Assembly (NCBI GenBank): GCA_016200045.1 | Contig: JACQFN010000002.1 | Coordinates: 1-64,000, forward strand | Source of the DNA: Nitrososphaerota archaeon | GTDB lineage: Archaea; Thermoproteota; Nitrososphaeria; Nitrososphaerales; Gagatemarchaeaceae | Reading direction: 5' to 3' | Length of the DNA: 64,000 nucleotides | Notes under the pieces: model-generated | Databases searched by the model: none | What the model was told of the DNA's origin: nothing | What the model saw: only the letters and a program-made list of their open reading frames with translations | Made by a program: the position numbers and the translations under genes | In this document: piece by piece, positions 8,105 to 52,563 of the stretch | How the letters are laid out: every line of letters begins with the position of its first letter | Position numbering within the stretch: position 1 is the stretch's first letter

Positions 8105-10552
8105 TTGAGAGGTCACAAGGACCACGGGAGCGCCCTTCTGGCTGTCGGGCTTGTTCTCTGCTTCCTAATCTCTGTCGTTCTGAGTGGCATCCCAACGGCA
8201 TTCGCGGCGAAGAAGGTCACAGCCGCAGGGGTTCCCTACGCTCTCGGGCTGCAAGTCGTACCCTCCAAGCTTCCGTCAGACGGGGCGACGTACGCATCAC
8301 TGTTCGTCACGCTCCTTGACAGCACCTCTCGCCCTTCCATAGCGGCCTCCTACGTCTCAGTCTACCTGTCGTCATCTCAGGAAAACATAGCCACAGTCGT
8401 CCCGACCCTGATAATCCAGCCCGGGTCCAACTACGCAACTGCGAACATCACGACGACCGTGACCCCTGGCAACGCGGTCATAACGGCCTCATCTCCCGGC
8501 CTTCTCACTGCGTCCGTGGTGGCCTCCACGGCGGTACCCAGCGGCTTTCCTTCTCAACTCAAAGTCTTCCTGTCTCCGGCGACCGTACTCGCCCAGCCCA
8601 ACGTCCAAGGGTCATTGATCGTGGAGCTTTTGGACCAGAAAGGTCAACCTACGAAGTCGCCCACGGATATCATTGTCTCGCTGTCATCAAGCAACACGCG
8701 GGTGGTGAACGTCTCACAATCGTCCATCGTCCTCAAGGCTGGGAAGCTGGAAGTAGCCTCACTGTACACGTCTTCCTACATACCAGGCAAGGCCAGGATA
8801 ACGGCAGCATCTGCCGGCTTGGCCGCGGGCTCGGGGACCCTCACCGTCACCGGTCCTTCGCCTCAGATTCTCCATATGTACGCCCAACCCAACAAGATCC
8901 CTATTTCGACATCGGGGAAACTGTCGATAGTTCTCTCAGACTCGACTGGCAACCCGGCACGGGCCCCCAATGACATTACCGTTTACTTGAGCTCGACCAA
9001 CACGAGCGTCGCCAAGGTTCCGTCCTCTGTAGTGGTCCGCGGTGGAAGCATCTTGGTGGAGGCGCTCTTAAACACGACCGCCCACCCCGGGTCCGTGACG
9101 ATCACTGCTTCTTCGACAAATCTTGTGACGACCAGCACGACTCTAAGGTCTTTCGTGCCCGTCTTGACGCCTGCAAAACTGAAACTTGAGCTGTCCCCGC
9201 CAATCGTTCTTGCGGACGGAAGCAGCTACGACGCAGGAGTGTTGTCTCTTCAGAACTCCCTAGGGAGTCCAGCCGAGTCCGCTGCCGCGGTGACTGTCCA
9301 GCTCACCTCCTCCAACACCAAGGTCGGTACCGTCCCCCTGACCGTGACCTTTCCCCCGAACCGCAACTTTGTGAGGGTCGTCTTCTCAACAAGCTTTCTG
9401 TCGGGATCGACCGCAATCACGGCCTCAGGGAACAACTTGTTGACGGATCAAGTGTCGATATCCACCTTCGGACCGGTTCCTGTGAAACTCGCCCTGTCGG
9501 TATTGGCCTCGTCTAACAGCCTTCCCGCCGACGGACTAGCATACCAAGTCCTGCAGGTCGCATTGACAGACTCGGTAGGGGGGCCGGCGCCTGCTCCTGT
9601 CGACGTTTCCGTTCAACTCCTTTCAGCCTCATCGGGCGTAGTCTCGGTTGACTCGTCGATAACAATCCCGGCTGGTTCGTTTGCCGCCGTGGAAACGGTG
9701 TCGACGAGTCCACTGCCGGGCAAGAGCAACATCAGCTCCCTTGCCCAAGGCTTCTCCTCTGCCGGCGTCTCTATCACGACTCAGATTCCTGCCCCGTACA
9801 CTCTTGCTGGCCTCATCGCCCCGACTCCGAGCGTGCTCTCTGAAGTTGCGACCCCGCCAATGTTCGGCGTGCAACTCAGGGACTCCTTAGGCAATCCGAC
9901 TCGTGCGGCCCTGCCTACCCAAGTCCTTGTCACTTCATCGAACGCGAAGATGATTCCACTCCCGTTCATTCTGACCGTTCCACAGGGAGCGGATCACCTG
10001 CTGGTCCCGCTCAACGTCCCCGTGAATGGAACGACCATTCTAACGCTGTCTGCCCCCGGTTTGAAGACGTCCTCGGTGCACGTGGACATAAGAGGTCCGT
10101 CTCAGTCGGTCACTGTAACTCCCAAGACATCGAATATCTTCACTAATGGTTCCGTGAATCTTGTTGCCACAGTGAAAGTGGAAGGGCAGCCTATCTCGGG
10201 CGTGACCGTGTCTTGGAACGCCACCCTGGGGAGGCTTGACTCGAACACTTCTTTGACATCCACATTGGGGACAGCCACGAACGCCTTTCGGCCAACTCAG
10301 ACCGGTCTGGCGAAGATAACGGTCACGTTCAGCAGCCCTGCCATCGGAACAATAGTCTTGACGCCTACCGTCACCGTATCGGCGATTCCGCCAAGGGCTA
10401 CACCATCGCTCCTCCAAGTCTTGCTGGGCTATCTGATTTTCGTAGTCCCTGTCGTGGCCGTTGCGTTGGGAGTCTTCTTGTTCCTCCAGGTCAGGAAGCG
10501 TCGCCAGAAGGCCCGTGAGGAGCTCGAAGCGGGTTTCCAGACTCTCACGTAG
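8105..10552 (+). CDS. Large repeat-containing surface adhesin with C-terminal membrane anchor
   Basis: I choose TTG 8105 (815 aa) because a TATA element sits 28 nt upstream and the protein then begins with a proper signal peptide (basic RGHKDHG, then ALLAVGLVLCFLISVVL, ending near AFA). The mature part has six repeats of about 100 residues, each with a pattern like LSDSTGNPA..., VxLSSSNT and ITASS, resembling bacterial Ig-like (invasin/intimin type) folds, then a seventh domain close to Big_1 (GVTVSWNATLGRL). It ends with a membrane helix (YLIFVVPVVAVALGVFLFL) and a basic tail, so it is anchored at its C-terminus. The likely role is cell-surface adhesion or S-layer-associated structure. It precedes pilin locus B on the same strand with its own promoter. 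Confidence 0.78.
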   Translation: MRGHKDHGSALLAVGLVLCFLISVVLSGIPTAFAAKKVTAAGVPYALGLQVVPSKLPSDGATYASLFVTLLDSTSRPSIAASYVSVYLSSSQENIATVVPTLIIQPGSNYATANITTTVTPGNAVITASSPGLLTASVVASTAVPSGFPSQLKVFLSPATVLAQPNVQGSLIVELLDQKGQPTKSPTDIIVSLSSSNTRVVNVSQSSIVLKAGKLEVASLYTSSYIPGKARITAASAGLAAGSGTLTVTGPSPQILHMYAQPNKIPISTSGKLSIVLSDSTGNPARAPNDITVYLSSTNTSVAKVPSSVVVRGGSILVEALLNTTAHPGSVTITASSTNLVTTSTTLRSFVPVLTPAKLKLELSPPIVLADGSSYDAGVLSLQNSLGSPAESAAAVTVQLTSSNTKVGTVPLTVTFPPNRNFVRVVFSTSFLSGSTAITASGNNLLTDQVSISTFGPVPVKLALSVLASSNSLPADGLAYQVLQVALTDSVGGPAPAPVDVSVQLLSASSGVVSVDSSITIPAGSFAAVETVSTSPLPGKSNISSLAQGFSSAGVSITTQIPAPYTLAGLIAPTPSVLSEVATPPMFGVQLRDSLGNPTRAALPTQVLVTSSNAKMIPLPFILTVPQGADHLLVPLNVPVNGTTILTLSAPGLKTSSVHVDIRGPSQSVTVTPKTSNIFTNGSVNLVATVKVEGQPISGVTVSWNATLGRLDSNTSLTSTLGTATNAFRPTQTGLAKITVTFSSPAIGTIVLTPTVTVSAIPPRATPSLLQVLLGYLIFVVPVVAVALGVFLFLQVRKRRQKAREELEAGFQTLT

Positions 10553-28618: not shown

Positions 28619-28789
28619 TTCGCGAAGGTCGCAGAATCCACACCAATCCGTTAAGATAACTTGTTTCTCTTGGCTAACAGCGTCCTCTGCTTAGCTTAAC
28701 TGGGGTCAAGACTGCAAAAACTCGACGTCCTGTCTCTGGTTTCCGACTGGGCCGTCTCCAACCGCGCATTCAGGCGCAACAAGCTGGAG

Positions 28790-29257
28790 GTGGAGAAGAA
28801 GGTCGTCGCAGCCGCGCTGTGCAACGCCGGGTACTCATACCGGTCTGTCGCAGAAATGCTCGGGGGGATATCCTACATCGGCGCGAGGGACGCCTTCATC
28901 TCGCTGAACTCGAGCATGCCCCAAGAGTCGCAGAGGTTCAGGCGGGAGATCGCCATCGACGGGTGCGACGTAGTCCTTGGCGGCCGCAGGTTCTACCTCT
29001 GGCTGGCGCGCGACATCGACTCAGGGGAGGTGGTCTCGTTCTATGGGTCCCCGTCTGGCTCGGCGGAGGACGGGGCAAGGTTCCTAGCCTCAATCGGGAG
29101 GCAGTGCTCAAACCGTCCCCGTGTAAGGCTGGGGACTGGGTCGAACTTCCCGAGGGGGCTTCTGAACCTGGACCTGTACTTCGAGGAGAATGCCACCCCC
29201 TCGTTCATGGGCAGGATAGGGCGCCTCTTCCTGGGCTCCACGTCCCGGGTCCAATAG
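28790..29257 (+). pseudogene. IS6-like DDE transposase relic, possibly domesticated
   Basis: 155 aa from GTG 28790; the homologous frame extends about 25 codons further upstream (VSDWAVSNRAFRRNKLEV) but reaches a TAA with no standard start. It has the helical N-terminus (SYRSVAEMLGGISYIGARDA) and the first catalytic strand of IS6-type transposases (IAIDGCDVVLGGRRFYLWLA, RDIDSGEVV). The second catalytic Asp, expected in a TDGG-like motif, is replaced (LGTGSNFPRGLLNL), and no clear DDE Glu helix is visible. No terminal inverted repeats were seen. It is inactive as a transposase; whether it is retained for DNA binding is unknown. Confidence 0.6.
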
Positions 29258-29276: not shown

Positions 29277-30053
29277 CTAACCATTTTCCTTCGGCTTCAT
29301 AGCCACGACTGCCTCGACGGCAACCCTTGAAGCAAGGACGGTCCGGTCCCTGACCCTCTTCTCATGGAACTTCGGCACCCACTTCTTGAGCCCGAGTAGA
29401 TCTGAAACCACCTGAAGGGATGCAATTTCGACCCCCCTGTGTTTGGCCACCGTGAATACCGCGGACGATTCCATGTTGACCCCCAGCGCGCCTCTCCCAC
29501 GGAACCTTCTGACCTTCGCTCGGGTCTCCCTATAGGGAGCGTCGGTGGTCCACACTCCTCCGACGGCAAATTCGAAGCCCTTTTTCCTGAGGAAATCAGT
29601 CAAGAAGGAAGTCGTCCTCCGAGACGGGGCAACGGGGCTCGCCGTCGGCCGGTAGTGCAGAGTGGTCCCCTCGTCGACGAAAGCCTCGTCCACGACGACG
29701 AAGTCCCCCGCCGTGAGTGACGGGTCCAGCCCTCCGCAGATCCCGACCTCGAGGATCATCCTTGCGCCCGACGCTATCATCTCCTCCAGCATCATCACCG
29801 ACGCGGAACCTCCAATGAACGATTGGATAACCCCGACAGGAATTCCTCGATACTCTCCGATGGCGAGACGTTTCGGGTAGTAGTGCTTTGAATACCTCCC
29901 TCTGATGCGACGCCTGACCGTCTCGAACATCCCCCTGTGGTAAGTGGCGAGGAGGCGGCTCGGGACCGACAGCTCTGCCAAGGTCAGGTTGTTGCGCTCG
30001 GCAAGATAGGCGATGAAGTCGTTAGGGGAGAAGATGGCTGGCTCCTGTTTCAT
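29277..30053 (-). CDS. Nucleoside phosphorylase (uridine / purine phosphorylase family)
   Basis: 258 aa from ATG 30053 (TTG 30065 adds four residues); a TATA-like TCTAAAGATG lies about 37 nt upstream. Family hallmarks are EVGICGGLDPSLTAGDFVVV, ALGVNMESSAVFTVAKHRGV (the MES substrate-binding motif) and VVSDLLGL. These enzymes split nucleosides with phosphate to a base and ribose-1-phosphate. Specificity cannot be assigned from the sequence; uridine phosphorylase is a reasonable guess. The gene is an intact enzyme on the edge of the accessory region. Confidence 0.8.
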   Translation of the reverse strand: MKQEPAIFSPNDFIAYLAERNNLTLAELSVPSRLLATYHRGMFETVRRRIRGRYSKHYYPKRLAIGEYRGIPVGVIQSFIGGSASVMMLEEMIASGARMILEVGICGGLDPSLTAGDFVVVDEAFVDEGTTLHYRPTASPVAPSRRTTSFLTDFLRKKGFEFAVGGVWTTDAPYRETRAKVRRFRGRGALGVNMESSAVFTVAKHRGVEIASLQVVSDLLGLKKWVPKFHEKRVRDRTVLASRVAVEAVVAMKPKENG

Positions 30054-30267
30054 GGCTCGGGGCAACAGCCAGGGTCATCACGTATCATCTTTAGACTTGG
30101 CGAAGGGCGCCGGTTCGGGAGGTTCTCCATGCTCGAGGGGCAAGGGTCAACATTGATATCAACATCGATAGGTGGCGGAAGCCCCAATCAAGACCCTCCA
30201 GGCGTGTCTAGTTGGCGTTGAATATCGGATATTATCAGCTGGGCAGGAAAGCGTTTGTCGTGCAGGC

Positions 30268-30487
30268 CGGGAAAAACGGTCGGGAAACGGTCGGGAAAAA
30301 AGCACAACCAACTTGAAAGGGGTCTACCTGACTGTTTCCCGACCTCTTTTCCCGAGTGTTTCCCGATTTTTCCCGAGCACGTTTCCCGCCCAAAAATGGG
30401 GCTGGACTAAGAGGAGGATTCGACTCGATGTCAACTGCCGACCGACACCGACCCAGCTCGGCGTTCCTTTCCCGGGCCCTTTTCCCG
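30268..30487. repeat. Phased cluster of ten CGGGAAA / TTTCCCG heptamers
   Basis: Three CGGGAAA copies start at 30268, 30281 and 30292; seven TTTCCCG copies start at 30335, 30348, 30359, 30369, 30382, 30468 and 30481. Spacing within each cluster is 10-13 bp, about one helical turn, and the two groups face each other. No gene is supported here. This is the pattern of an iteron array or operator bound cooperatively by one protein. Confidence 0.75.
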
Positions 30488-30559
30488 ACCTCGCCAACCC
30501 CCTGAAGACCCGTTGGTCTAATACCCCCTGCCTCCATCGGGTCAGTTCGAGGCGCTGAG

Positions 30560-30802
30560 GGTCGGGCTGAGAGGCTCGAAGGGAAGGAGAAGGACACCAG
30601 GGCCCTCGTCCAGCTCGCCTCGGCGTCCGAGGCGGTCCTGAAGGGCATCTCCACCACGGGCCAGAAGCCGGGGTGCCTCGCAGGGATGGCCCTCTACGTC
30701 GCAGGGAGGGGGTCCCAGTTCCGCCTGACGCACGGGAGGGTGGCACGGCTCTTCGGCATCAGCGAATACTTCCGAACCTTGAGGTCCGACGATGACTCAT
30801 AG
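30560..30802 (+). pseudogene. TFB C-terminal cyclin-fold relic
   Basis: An open frame ending at TAG 30800-30802 with no credible start encodes AERLEGKEKDTRALVQLASA, then GISTTGQKPGCLAGMALYVA and HGRVARLFGISEYFRTLR. This aligns with the last cyclin repeat of the intact TFB at 55641-56579 (ISAGKDPMGLAAAALYVA...VAEAAGVTEVTIRNRYKGLR). The zinc ribbon, B-reader and first cyclin repeat are missing. It could be a truncated TFB or the end of a small TFB-like factor. Similarity is moderate and based on eye alignment only. Confidence 0.5.
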
Positions 30803-31374
30803 GTGTTTGGTTTGAACAAGTCCATTTCGGAGGCGAAAAGAATCGAAGGGTCTCTGATGGTGCGGATCCCGTCGGCCACGAACCCGAGGGATTCCATTCC
30901 TTGACTCAAGAGTCCGAGTCACCCGCAGTCCGGCCTTTGATTTCGAGTCCGGTTCGAGCTGCGAAATTGGTGTGAGCCCCTTCCGGCCTATTGAATCCCC
31001 TCGGTTCCGAACCCTCGGTTCCGAATCCATCTCCAGCGGCAATAACGCCTTCGCGTCCCGGCGGAAGCAGCCCGAGAAGAAGGGATTCAAGAGGACGACA
31101 TGGTCGAACTTCAGTTCAAGAAGGCTCGCAAGTCCTGGTAGATGCGGGTTTCTGGGTAAAGACTGGAGGCATTGTGGCTAAAGCGGCGCCCGAGACTCCA
31201 CAGTCTAGGAAGGACAAAGAGGTCAAGGACTCCACCGGGGCGAAATTCGACCCCCAGATACCAATCCAGTACGTCATAACCGACCAGGCGAGCTTCGACC
31301 AGGTCCTTTCACCGGCGACCACTCCCCTTTCGTCCCTGTGGTCTTCGGGGTCGTACGGATTGGCGGGAGCAATC
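30803..31374. other. Low-confidence stretch in decayed region
   Basis: ORF 30991-31560 (plus) and 31116-31382 (minus) overlap and neither shows a recognisable domain. A plus-strand segment from GTG 31174 (KFDPQIPIQYVITDQASFDQ) could be the remnant of a small gene. The 13-mer CCTCGGTTCCGAA occurs twice near 30997-31024. No RNA gene seen. Confidence 0.35.
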
Positions 31375-31492: not shown

Positions 31493-31858
31493 TCACTCGG
31501 CGACTTTTAAATGCGTTTTCAGCCATGCTTCTAAGGAAATCCTATCCACTCGGCCGTTAGCCACGCCTGTGAGTTTGTCTATGACCTCTTGAGGCCACAT
31601 CCCTGAAAGGGTATAACCATTGAGCAGCAAGAACGTCTCTGCTATTTGATAGGCGCTTCTCTTGTTGCCGTCTAGGAAGGGGTGGTTTCTGATGACACAA
31701 TAAATCAAGAACGCAGTCTTTTCTGTCAACATCGTTCCTGTACTCCGCATGGCGTCCAAACAGTATCGAAGATTCCCAGAGCTGAGCATGCCTATCTTCT
31801 GACTTGAGAGAACACGCTTGTTGATGTAGACCGCATCGTCAAAGTCGGGATAGTTCAT
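31493..31858 (-). CDS. Fic/DOC-family toxin (Doc-like)
   Basis: I start at ATG 31858 (121 aa) because MNYPDFDDAVYINKRVL is the usual beginning of Doc proteins; the track ORF adds 59 unrelated codons. The Fic motif is intact: HPFLDGNKRSAYQ, with the C-terminal helix typical of Doc (SGMWPQEVIDKLTGVANG). Doc proteins phosphorylate EF-Tu/EF-1A-like targets; other Fic proteins AMPylate. No Phd-type antitoxin is found upstream, where only broken genes lie, so the toxin may be orphaned or inhibited by a distant partner. Confidence 0.82.
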   Translation of the reverse strand: MNYPDFDDAVYINKRVLSSQKIGMLSSGNLRYCLDAMRSTGTMLTEKTAFLIYCVIRNHPFLDGNKRSAYQIAETFLLLNGYTLSGMWPQEVIDKLTGVANGRVDRISLEAWLKTHLKVAE

Positions 31859-31939
31859 CGATTCCCTTTTATCAGGCAACCTAAAGAGCCTTCTCAGCCT
31901 TGGCTTGGCTTGAAAGACGGACAGGAATAACCCTCGCCT

Positions 31940-32111
31940 GAATGGACCGTCGGAACGTGCGACGTTTGCAGGATCCTCGACAACGACCAGCGCCCCAAGC
32001 GGGTGACGTTCTGCGACTTCCCGCGGGGCCAACATCTGCGAGAGCGACCTCTACTCGACACGGAGGGTGAAGGCGTTCCTTTCGGCTCTCGCTAGGGAAG
32101 ATGGTCTATGA
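31940..32111 (+). pseudogene. Frameshifted small zinc-finger gene
   Basis: The first frame reads WTVGTCDVCRILDNDQRPKR and continues VTFCDF; a one-base shift then gives GANICESDLYSTRRVKAFLS, ending ALAREDGL and TGA 32109-32111. Together they form a plausible CxxC...CxxC...C zinc finger split by one indel. No start codon with a promoter could be assigned. Zinc-finger genes of this size are common in archaeal mobile elements. Confidence 0.45.
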
Positions 32112-32588
32112 CCGACTACTGGAAGTGCGGGACATCTTCAAAGTCAAGAAGATGGTCGATGGTAAGGAGGTCGAGATCGACATCTGGGAGTACCGAGTTC
32201 AACAGAGAGGCCCAGCTCAAGACGACCGTGCCTGGTTGGAATACCTCTCGGGGTCGAACGCAGGAAAGCAAGTGAGCCGATATGTCGACGGGGGTAAGGT
32301 GTTCACGCACTTTGGTTTCCATAGCAGAAGTGGCTTCGAGACTCAAAGAGAGCGGGGAAGGACTACGCAATGGCGGTCGAAAGGATTTCCTCGCTATCCA
32401 GTGTTGTCGGCGGTGACAGGTCAGACGCCATGATGGCAGGGATCATCCATGCCGAGATTCGAAGGGAGGTGCCCAACTTCAGCCTCGCCGACGCTTTTTC
32501 CCTGCAGCTCGCGAGGAAGCTCGGAGGGATAGTAGTGACAGGAGATCCGGACTTCAAGGATGTCAAAGAAGCAGATTTCCTAGAGTAA
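32101..32588 (+). pseudogene. VapC-like PIN-domain gene broken by two frameshifts
   Basis: Three frames read in series rebuild a PIN domain. ORF 32101 supplies DDRAWLEYLSGSNAGKQVSR and YVDGGKVFTH; a shift near 32312 gives LVSIAEVASRLKESG; a second shift in GGGGAAGG near 32357 gives KDYAMAVERISSLSSVVGG and then SLADAFSLQLARKLGGIVVT GDPDFKDVKEADFLE. The C-terminal part alone appears in the track as ORF 32370-32588. The first 35 residues of ORF 32101 (FKVKKMVDGKEVEIDIWEYR) do not look like PIN and may belong to a fused or adjacent antitoxin. Confidence 0.65.
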
Positions 32589-35304: not shown

Positions 35305-35324
35305 CCTGAAGGGGAACCGGCTCC

Positions 35325-35750
35325 GTGTCCTCCAAGAGCATCAAGCTGTGGTGGTCGGACAGGCTGATGAGCTCAGGGAACATCCTCGGCTTCCTTTACG
35401 GGGAGAGGAAGGACACGGTGGCGGCGGCAAACCTGATGGTAACGAGAATGAAAACCAGCCCGAACCTCTCCATGACGAAGCGAGAGATGAGGTTCTTCGC
35501 AAAGGACCTCGAAACCGGGAAGGCAGGGGTGAAGTACAGCTACCACAACTTCTACACCAAGCTTCTGCGGAAGCTCTTGGACATGGGGTTCGTAGAGAAG
35601 GACGTTCTGGTCTGGGACGCCAGGCGCAAGAAGACGGCGTCGGTCTATCAGCTCAAGATCCAGCCCGCGTCTGAGCGCGCGCCGCAGGGCGGGTTCGTAA
35701 AGCACGCCTGGCACATAGCGAAGGGTTGGAACGACCTGATACAGGGCTAG
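35325..35750 (+). CDS. Winged-helix-like basic protein
   Basis: 141 aa from GTG 35325. Predicted helices (TKREMRFFAKDLETGKAGVK, FYTKLLRKLLDMGFVEKDVL) followed by a wing-like hairpin (WDARRKKTASVYQLKIQP) suggest a DNA-binding winged helix. Highly basic, no cysteine. It precedes a C2H2 zinc-finger gene on the same strand by 37 bp with a separate TATA-like element. No named family recognised. Confidence 0.65.
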   Translation: MSSKSIKLWWSDRLMSSGNILGFLYGERKDTVAAANLMVTRMKTSPNLSMTKREMRFFAKDLETGKAGVKYSYHNFYTKLLRKLLDMGFVEKDVLVWDARRKKTASVYQLKIQPASERAPQGGFVKHAWHIAKGWNDLIQG

Positions 35751-51783: not shown

Positions 51784-52563
51784 ATGGACTTCGGGATGGG
51801 CAATCGGCTCTCAAGGGTGATGGGGAAGGGTCGTACCGTAATGCTCGCGGTAGACCATGGGTACTTCCAGGGCCCGACGACCGGGCTTGAGAATCTGAAA
51901 AGGAGCCTCGCGCCCCTGATCCCGTTCGCAGACTCCTTGATGCTCACGAGGGGGGCCCTGAGAAGCTCGGTGGACCCCGCGGAAAAAGTCCCGATCGTAC
52001 TTCGCTCCTCTGGGGGGACCAGCGTCCTGAAGGAGCTTTCCGACGAGGGCGTGACGACCTCGATAGAGGAGGCCGTCCGGCTGAACGCCTCCGCCGTCGC
52101 GGTGTCGGTTTTCGTCGGGTCCGAGAGGGAAAAGCAGACCCTCCTGAACCTCTCGAGTACAGTCGACGAGGGGGAGAGGTACGGGATGCCCGTCCTTGCA
52201 GTCACCGCCGTGGGGAGGGAGATGAACAGGGACTCTAGGTATCTGGGGTTGGCCTGCAGAATCGCCGCTGAGCTTGGCGCCCGGGTGGTGAAGACCTACT
52301 ACTGCGAGGACTTCGAGAAGGTGGTGGATGCCTGCCCCGTCCCGGTCGTGATAGCGGGGGGGAAGAAGGTCCCCGAAAGGGACGCTTTGCAGCTCGCCCA
52401 TGACGCCGTTTCGAAGGGGGCGGCAGGGGTCGACATGGGAAGGAACATCTTCCAGTCGGCGGACCCTGTCGGGATGATAAAGGCCGTGAGGGCCGTGGTG
52501 CACGAGGGGGCGGACGTTGAGTCTGCTCTAGCCATGGTCAGGCAAATCGCAGCCGGACGCTAG
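51784..52563 (+). CDS. DhnA/LsrF-family class I aldolase
   Basis: 259 aa. TIM-barrel class I aldolase; the C-terminal half is strikingly like LsrF: VVKTYYCEDFEKVVDACPVP with the Schiff-base Lys in VKTYY, VVIAGGKKVPERDALQ and GAAGVDMGRNIFQSADPVGM. Candidates are archaeal fructose-1,6-bisphosphate aldolase (DhnA type), an aromatic-pathway ADH synthase, or an LsrF-like thiolase. The sequence alone does not decide. It overlaps the stop of the convergent gene by 4 nt (CTAG). Confidence 0.82.
   Translation: MDFGMGNRLSRVMGKGRTVMLAVDHGYFQGPTTGLENLKRSLAPLIPFADSLMLTRGALRSSVDPAEKVPIVLRSSGGTSVLKELSDEGVTTSIEEAVRLNASAVAVSVFVGSEREKQTLLNLSSTVDEGERYGMPVLAVTAVGREMNRDSRYLGLACRIAAELGARVVKTYYCEDFEKVVDACPVPVVIAGGKKVPERDALQLAHDAVSKGAAGVDMGRNIFQSADPVGMIKAVRAVVHEGADVESALAMVRQIAAGR

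Follow-up and report, generated by a model that had tools for sequence, protein, structure and literature searches.

Several described systems resemble the locus analysed here. The iterons of theta plasmids and phage origins (the lambda O sites, the RepA iterons) are near-identical short direct repeats with a unit of ~22-24 bp, gathered in clusters of ~200 bp, and the array described below shares these features. The ORB and mini-ORB elements of archaeal origins served by Orc1/Cdc6 likewise carry repeats in both orientations, and the ORB half-site CTGGAAAC is one base off the CGGGAAAC of the array. Multi-site operators, the direct-repeat boxes of regulators, consist of short exact boxes spaced by roughly one helical turn in front of an intact gene, as is also the case here. 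Finally, intergenic heptamer tandem repeats in bacteria share the heptamer itself, CGGGAAA, with forward copies facing reverse ones; in the three intergenic-looking bacterial examples (L258 at 6951, L173 at 350 and L184 at 3411), tandem CGGGAAA faces tandem TTTCCCG and the two are able to form hairpins.

The window, the whole 64-kb stretch of DNA that was analysed, is the beginning of a 290-kb contig (C22) from a 1.54-Mb archaeal genome. It contains ten exact copies of CGGGAAA/TTTCCCG spanning exactly 30268-30487 (220 bp), arranged as follows:

30268-30298, + strand: left group, three CGGGAAA at 30268, 30281 and 30292, making one full 24-bp unit (CGGGAAAA-N5-CGGGAAAC-N3) and a half unit
30335-30388, - strand: core right group, five reverse heptamers at 30335, 30348, 30359, 30369 and 30382, with a unit at 30354-30335 and a shortened unit at 30375-30359
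30468-30487, - strand: outer pair, reverse heptamers at 30468 and 30481, 13 bp apart, forming the unit CGGGAAAA-GGGCC-CGGGAAAG

The preliminary description had reported ten copies in 220 bp, in two facing groups with 10-13-bp steps, phased at one helical turn and with no assigned gene. Both the copy number and the span were confirmed. The facing orientation also holds, but the outer pair is a third group, oriented like the second. Successive steps are 13, 11, (43), 13, 11, 10, 13, (86) and 13 bp, such that the 10-13-bp spacing is correct within groups but not between them, where two long gaps of 43 and 86 bp occur. Phasing is true in a weak sense: at 10.5 bp there is no coherence (R=0.10), and the best-fit period of 11.1 bp (R=0.86, step-permutation p=0.008) was chosen post hoc and gives p=0.10 when the long gaps are jittered. 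The lack of an assigned gene was upheld, as no conserved ORF runs through the array and the heptamer spacing is not a multiple of three; a protein-coding repeat was ruled out because the spacing is out of frame.

That such a cluster is very unlikely to arise by chance, as also claimed, was borne out when the 64 kb were resampled 40 times under a first-order (dinucleotide-frequency) model: no 7-mer exceeded a maximum of 3-4 copies in the same span, compared with the ten observed. The background of CGGGAAA is 0.04 exact copies per 280 bp, and nine further copies are scattered through the rest of the window. Within 407 kb scanned (contigs C22 and C3) the array was the sole cluster with at least six copies of a 7-mer in 220 bp, the overlapping TCGGGAA belonging to the same array. 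A genome-wide count of the heptamer, proposed earlier as a check, found that all seven CGGGAAA-N1-30-CGGGAAA pairs in the 1.54-Mb genome lie inside the array. The sequence TCGGGAAA occurs 84 times genome-wide, seven of them in the array.

The base immediately 3′ of the heptamer (on the CGGGAAA strand) alternates between A and not-A in seven of seven neighbouring pairs (permutation p=0.017), and the step that follows an A-type site is usually 13 bp. Because of this alternation and the usual 13-bp step, the repeated element is a two-site unit of ~24 bp, CGGGAAAA-N5-CGGGAAAC-N3, from which the array is built by repetition and inversion. There are three full units (30268+, 30348- and 30481-) and one shortened unit, the rest being half units, and the extended heptamer consensus is GGTCGGGAAA[A/C].

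Comparison of the three full units showed that none of the 14 heptamer columns varies, while 8 of the 10 linker columns do (Fisher p=6e-5). Since the heptamer columns are invariant and the linker columns vary, the array looks like a still-intact set of protein-binding sites, which suggests that the heptamers are under constraint, now or until recently; the copies compared were picked for being exact, so degraded ones could be missed. A single one-mismatch heptamer, at 30244, lies near the array (0.9 expected by chance). The same comparison bears on whether the array is a non-functional expansion, in which a 24-bp sequence was recently duplicated, in tandem and inverted, where no constraint acts, and is not maintained by selection. 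The duplication structure is clear (the 24-bp unit, the inverted arms that share linkers), no relative conserves the array, and it lies in a turnover region with broken genes. However, the linkers have diverged in both sequence and length and the heptamers have not, a pattern that simple recent duplication would not predict; we regard selection-free expansion as unlikely.

The facing groups create an inverted repeat:

30268-30354, no strand assigned: inverted repeat with 28-nt arms (30268-30295 and 30327-30354), 86% complementary, around a 31-nt loop; the + strand would fold into a long hairpin

This raises the alternative that the hairpin is transcribed from the + strand as a structured RNA, an attenuator or a terminator. 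As RNA, a 97-nt core folds at -47.8 kcal/mol, with z=-5.5 relative to shuffles on the + strand (-5.2 for the opposite strand), and two of the four differences between the arms become G-U pairs on the + strand. However, facing repeats fold by construction, the five further right-hand heptamers cannot all pair, and the whole 246 nt reaches a z of only about -2. Rfam returned no match for the array, a covariation test has no homologue to draw on, and a terminator would be out of place where the neighbouring genes are divergent rather than convergent. An RNA element at this position is very improbable.

The surroundings of the array were compared with those in related genomes. The conserved frame comprises V4R, an AN1/M50 protease and an IS6-like gene (28700-29254), followed by the gene at 35310-35747 and onward to PGK (37487). 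Several congeners share these flanks, but the intervening 4-8 kb or more differs. Because the congeners keep the flanks while the sequence between them differs, the array lies in an islet of gene turnover. The genes nearest to it are:

29277-30065, - strand: PNP_UDP_1 nucleoside phosphorylase, accessory, frame intact, starting ~200 bp left of the array
30536-30799, + strand: TFIIB C-terminal-repeat fragment, N-terminal part missing (PF00382, E=0.0047, below gathering)
30806-31138, + strand: what remains of a VapB-like antitoxin, split into 30806-30898 and 31049-31138, ~150 bp apart
31493-32035, - strand: Fic/Doc (death-on-curing) toxin-like gene, between the vapBC pieces
32221-32582, + strand: what remains of a VapC PIN toxin, its reading frame disrupted between 32310 and 32343

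The preliminary description had put the array on the left border of a cluster of decayed genes, and the TFIIB fragment and broken vapBC do come next. Open-frame homologues of vapBC occur at the corresponding islet in two congeners (G002 and G024). The heptamers are exact although these adjacent vapBC and TFIIB pieces are broken.

The IS6-transposase-like gene (28700-29254, + strand) encodes a DDE domain that matches NF033587 at E=4e-6, far below the cut-off. Genes ~58-65% identical to it adjoin the AN1/M50 protease at most of the congener loci compared, and one catalytic acidic residue is apparently missing (by eye), such that it is possibly a domesticated transposase. Its position 1 kb from the array, together with 79% inverted complementarity between the outer ends of the array (30264-30287 and 30468-30491), could indicate that the heptamers are transposase-binding sites at the ends of a small inverted-repeat element, bound by a transposase or recombinase. 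Against this, the array is single-copy in the genome, no target-site duplication was seen at its ends (by eye), and congeners without the array still have the IS6-like gene as a conserved neighbour of the islet. We consider such an origin highly improbable; a MITE was ruled out because the array is single-copy.

We tentatively favour a reading in which the array is a set of predicted binding sites for one DNA-binding protein, operator-like and acting on the adjacent accessory gene, and place this reading somewhat short of an even chance. Each heptamer would be one site for one sequence-specific protein, and two sites ~13 bp apart make up the ~24-bp unit that is multiplied head-to-tail and inverted. 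So arranged, the array would load many copies of the protein and would most likely control the phosphorylase (29277-30065) or the whole islet. In support, there are ten exact copies, the heptamers are invariant relative to their linkers, and the array lies upstream of an intact, divergently read gene: the phosphorylase gene is transcribed away from it, with the sites ~200-430 bp from its start, and is the nearest possible regulatory target. Uniqueness in the genome is as expected of a local, gene-specific site. On the other side, none of the islet genes was recognised as a regulator, and the phosphorylase homologues of G012 and G024, which are only 53% and 43% identical, lack an array of this kind upstream. 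Ten boxes, lying 200-430 bp from a gene start, are unusual for an archaeal operator, and archaeal repressors seldom have sites so far upstream. Two other features precede the phosphorylase gene (30147-30170 and 30220-30237): TTGATATCAA, a perfect palindrome accompanied by a 12-bp direct repeat, and an inverted repeat that is AT-rich; the palindrome and the inverted repeat are possible operator sites of the ordinary kind.

The array was absent from 30 congeners and from 399 other genomes of the same class, among which G185 has an unrelated 12-bp tandem only. In the homologous islet of the congeners no counterpart was present in the sequence compared, the islet being partly covered for some. Searches with the array DNA gave chance-level scraps only in 300 genomes of the order and no match in plasmid and phage collections. 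A collection-wide scan for three heptamers matched 102 stretches in viral sequences and at least 119 in genomes, most of them repeats in tandem or at regular spacing. Among the matches listed, only two IMG/VR contigs, L159 and L096, carry irregular clusters like the array, with homology to it not established. The L096 cluster (1478-1700) has 11 irregularly spaced CGGGAAA and the L159 cluster (10264-10400) has eight. In the latter, the copies fall within an ORF that separates RecT from a DnaB-like helicase in the replication module of a phage, like an origin within an initiator gene. The more specific alternating heptamer pattern matched no viral contig. Relatives of the phosphorylase were not found in viral contigs (pattern scan), and those on plasmids were all <60% identical. 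The literature searched held nothing relevant on a matching archaeal element or heptamer motif. Under the preferred operator-like reading, the array would have been acquired by this species alone, within a turnover islet between conserved genes (28700-29254 and 35310-35747), and would not be a core chromosomal element. It is improbable that it represents a new type of cis element in archaea, in which direct repeats of a 24-bp, two-heptamer unit are recognised by a predicted, undescribed binder that would maintain, silence or replicate accessory islets in the lineage.

The resemblance to iterons raised the question of replication. On contig C3, cdc6-1 (C3:52731-53906) has upstream ORB-type boxes (TGTTTCCACTGGAACC and CTCCACTGGAAGCACAGGGG), as does cdc6 in several congeners, and the cumulative GC skew of C3 reaches its maximum at 52177, beside cdc6. 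The skew extremes of C22, at 161585 and 279343 (161.6 and 279.3 kb), do not coincide with the 30-kb position of the array, and genome-wide searches found no orc1/cdc6 on C22, the two genes found being on C3 and C19. The chromosomal origin is thus very probably elsewhere than the array, on C3 near cdc6-1, the probable site being L058 10909-11216 (G000:C3 about 53.9-54.3 kb), and with the origin placed there by cdc6, the ORB boxes and the GC-skew maximum, the array was ruled out as the chromosomal oriC. The ORB dyad TTTCCA-N-TGGAAAC with its G-string was sought in the array copies, and the dyad is absent from them. A single CGGGAAAC in the C3 oriC was dropped as a link to replication because it is not conserved in congeners.

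Integrated elements with Cdc6/Orc1 are documented in Thaumarchaeota (PMC6563490), and the second Orc1/Cdc6 locus of this genome, on C19, is apparently one of them. The region (L381, G000:C19:219000-228000) encodes a divergent Orc1/Cdc6, a XerA-like tyrosine recombinase, a Dcm-type methylase (by sequence), a large ATPase-like gene and a TFIIB-like gene. It contains no heptamer, and no ORB-type box lies next to its initiator. The array was therefore rejected as the origin type of this second initiator, and the second-cdc6 genes of congeners have no such array alongside.

A further possibility is that an extrachromosomal element integrated here and was then mostly lost, leaving behind as the array its iteron-type site for replication or partition, the heptamers of which a Rep or centromere-binding protein would have bound. 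Consistent with this are the large number of exact short sites, in either orientation, within 220 bp, the toxin-antitoxin remnants and Doc gene of the accessory islet, and the other integrated element of the genome, on C19, which brings its own Orc1/Cdc6 and recombinase; the CGGGAAA cluster in the replication module of L159 offers an analogous, though unrelated, case. However, while clustered identical direct repeats are present as in a plasmid iteron origin, neither a cognate Rep initiator gene nor a ParA or an integrase was found nearby among the 28 window ORFs scanned (Pfam and NCBIfam, mainly short of 41 kb), and the genes scanned held no adjacent ParA-type ATPase and binding protein of the kind that accompany a partition centromere (parS/parC array). 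No AT-rich unwinding element lies within 1 kb of the array, where the maximum is 56% AT per 50 bp compared with 64% at the C3 cdc6 origin. Plasmid and phage DNA gave no match, the C19 element lacks the heptamer, and a dead relic should have decayed, yet the heptamers are intact. We therefore consider a lost-element origin doubtful. The preliminary description had seen a resemblance to a plasmid replication or partition origin or to an operator, and had suggested the relic origin of an integrated element, to be refuted if relatives carrying the locus did not conserve the heptamer. An array of protein sites fits the exact heptamers, the diverged linkers and the intergenic position, but the relic origin gained no support, and the refuting condition came out against it: congeners with the same flanks lack the cluster in the islet sequence compared.

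Were a protein to bind it, the array would offer a clean single-locus target with which to isolate a sequence-specific DNA-binding protein not described before, in a lineage of uncultured archaea that probably belongs to Nitrososphaerales. Moreover, cdc6, ORB boxes and GC skew allow a striking repeat cluster to be separated from the probable true origin. A relic replication origin would be of minor importance and is not what the evidence favours.

Set against the known systems, the array differs from iterons in that no initiator gene was found, there is no AT-rich unwinding element, the orientation is mixed with long gaps, and it has no plasmid or phage relative. ORB elements have a longer dyad with a G-string and are present at the probable oriC on C3, whereas the array, on a different contig and remote from the two Orc1/Cdc6 genes found, has no such dyad. 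Relative to multi-site operators, no regulator was recognised, the boxes number ten, and they stand 200-430 bp from the gene start. The bacterial heptamer repeats are mostly back-to-back 7-bp copies, while those of the array are separated by linkers of 3-6 bp. Arrays of this sort are already known, and the present one adds a sequence that is new and so far exemplified by a single genome.
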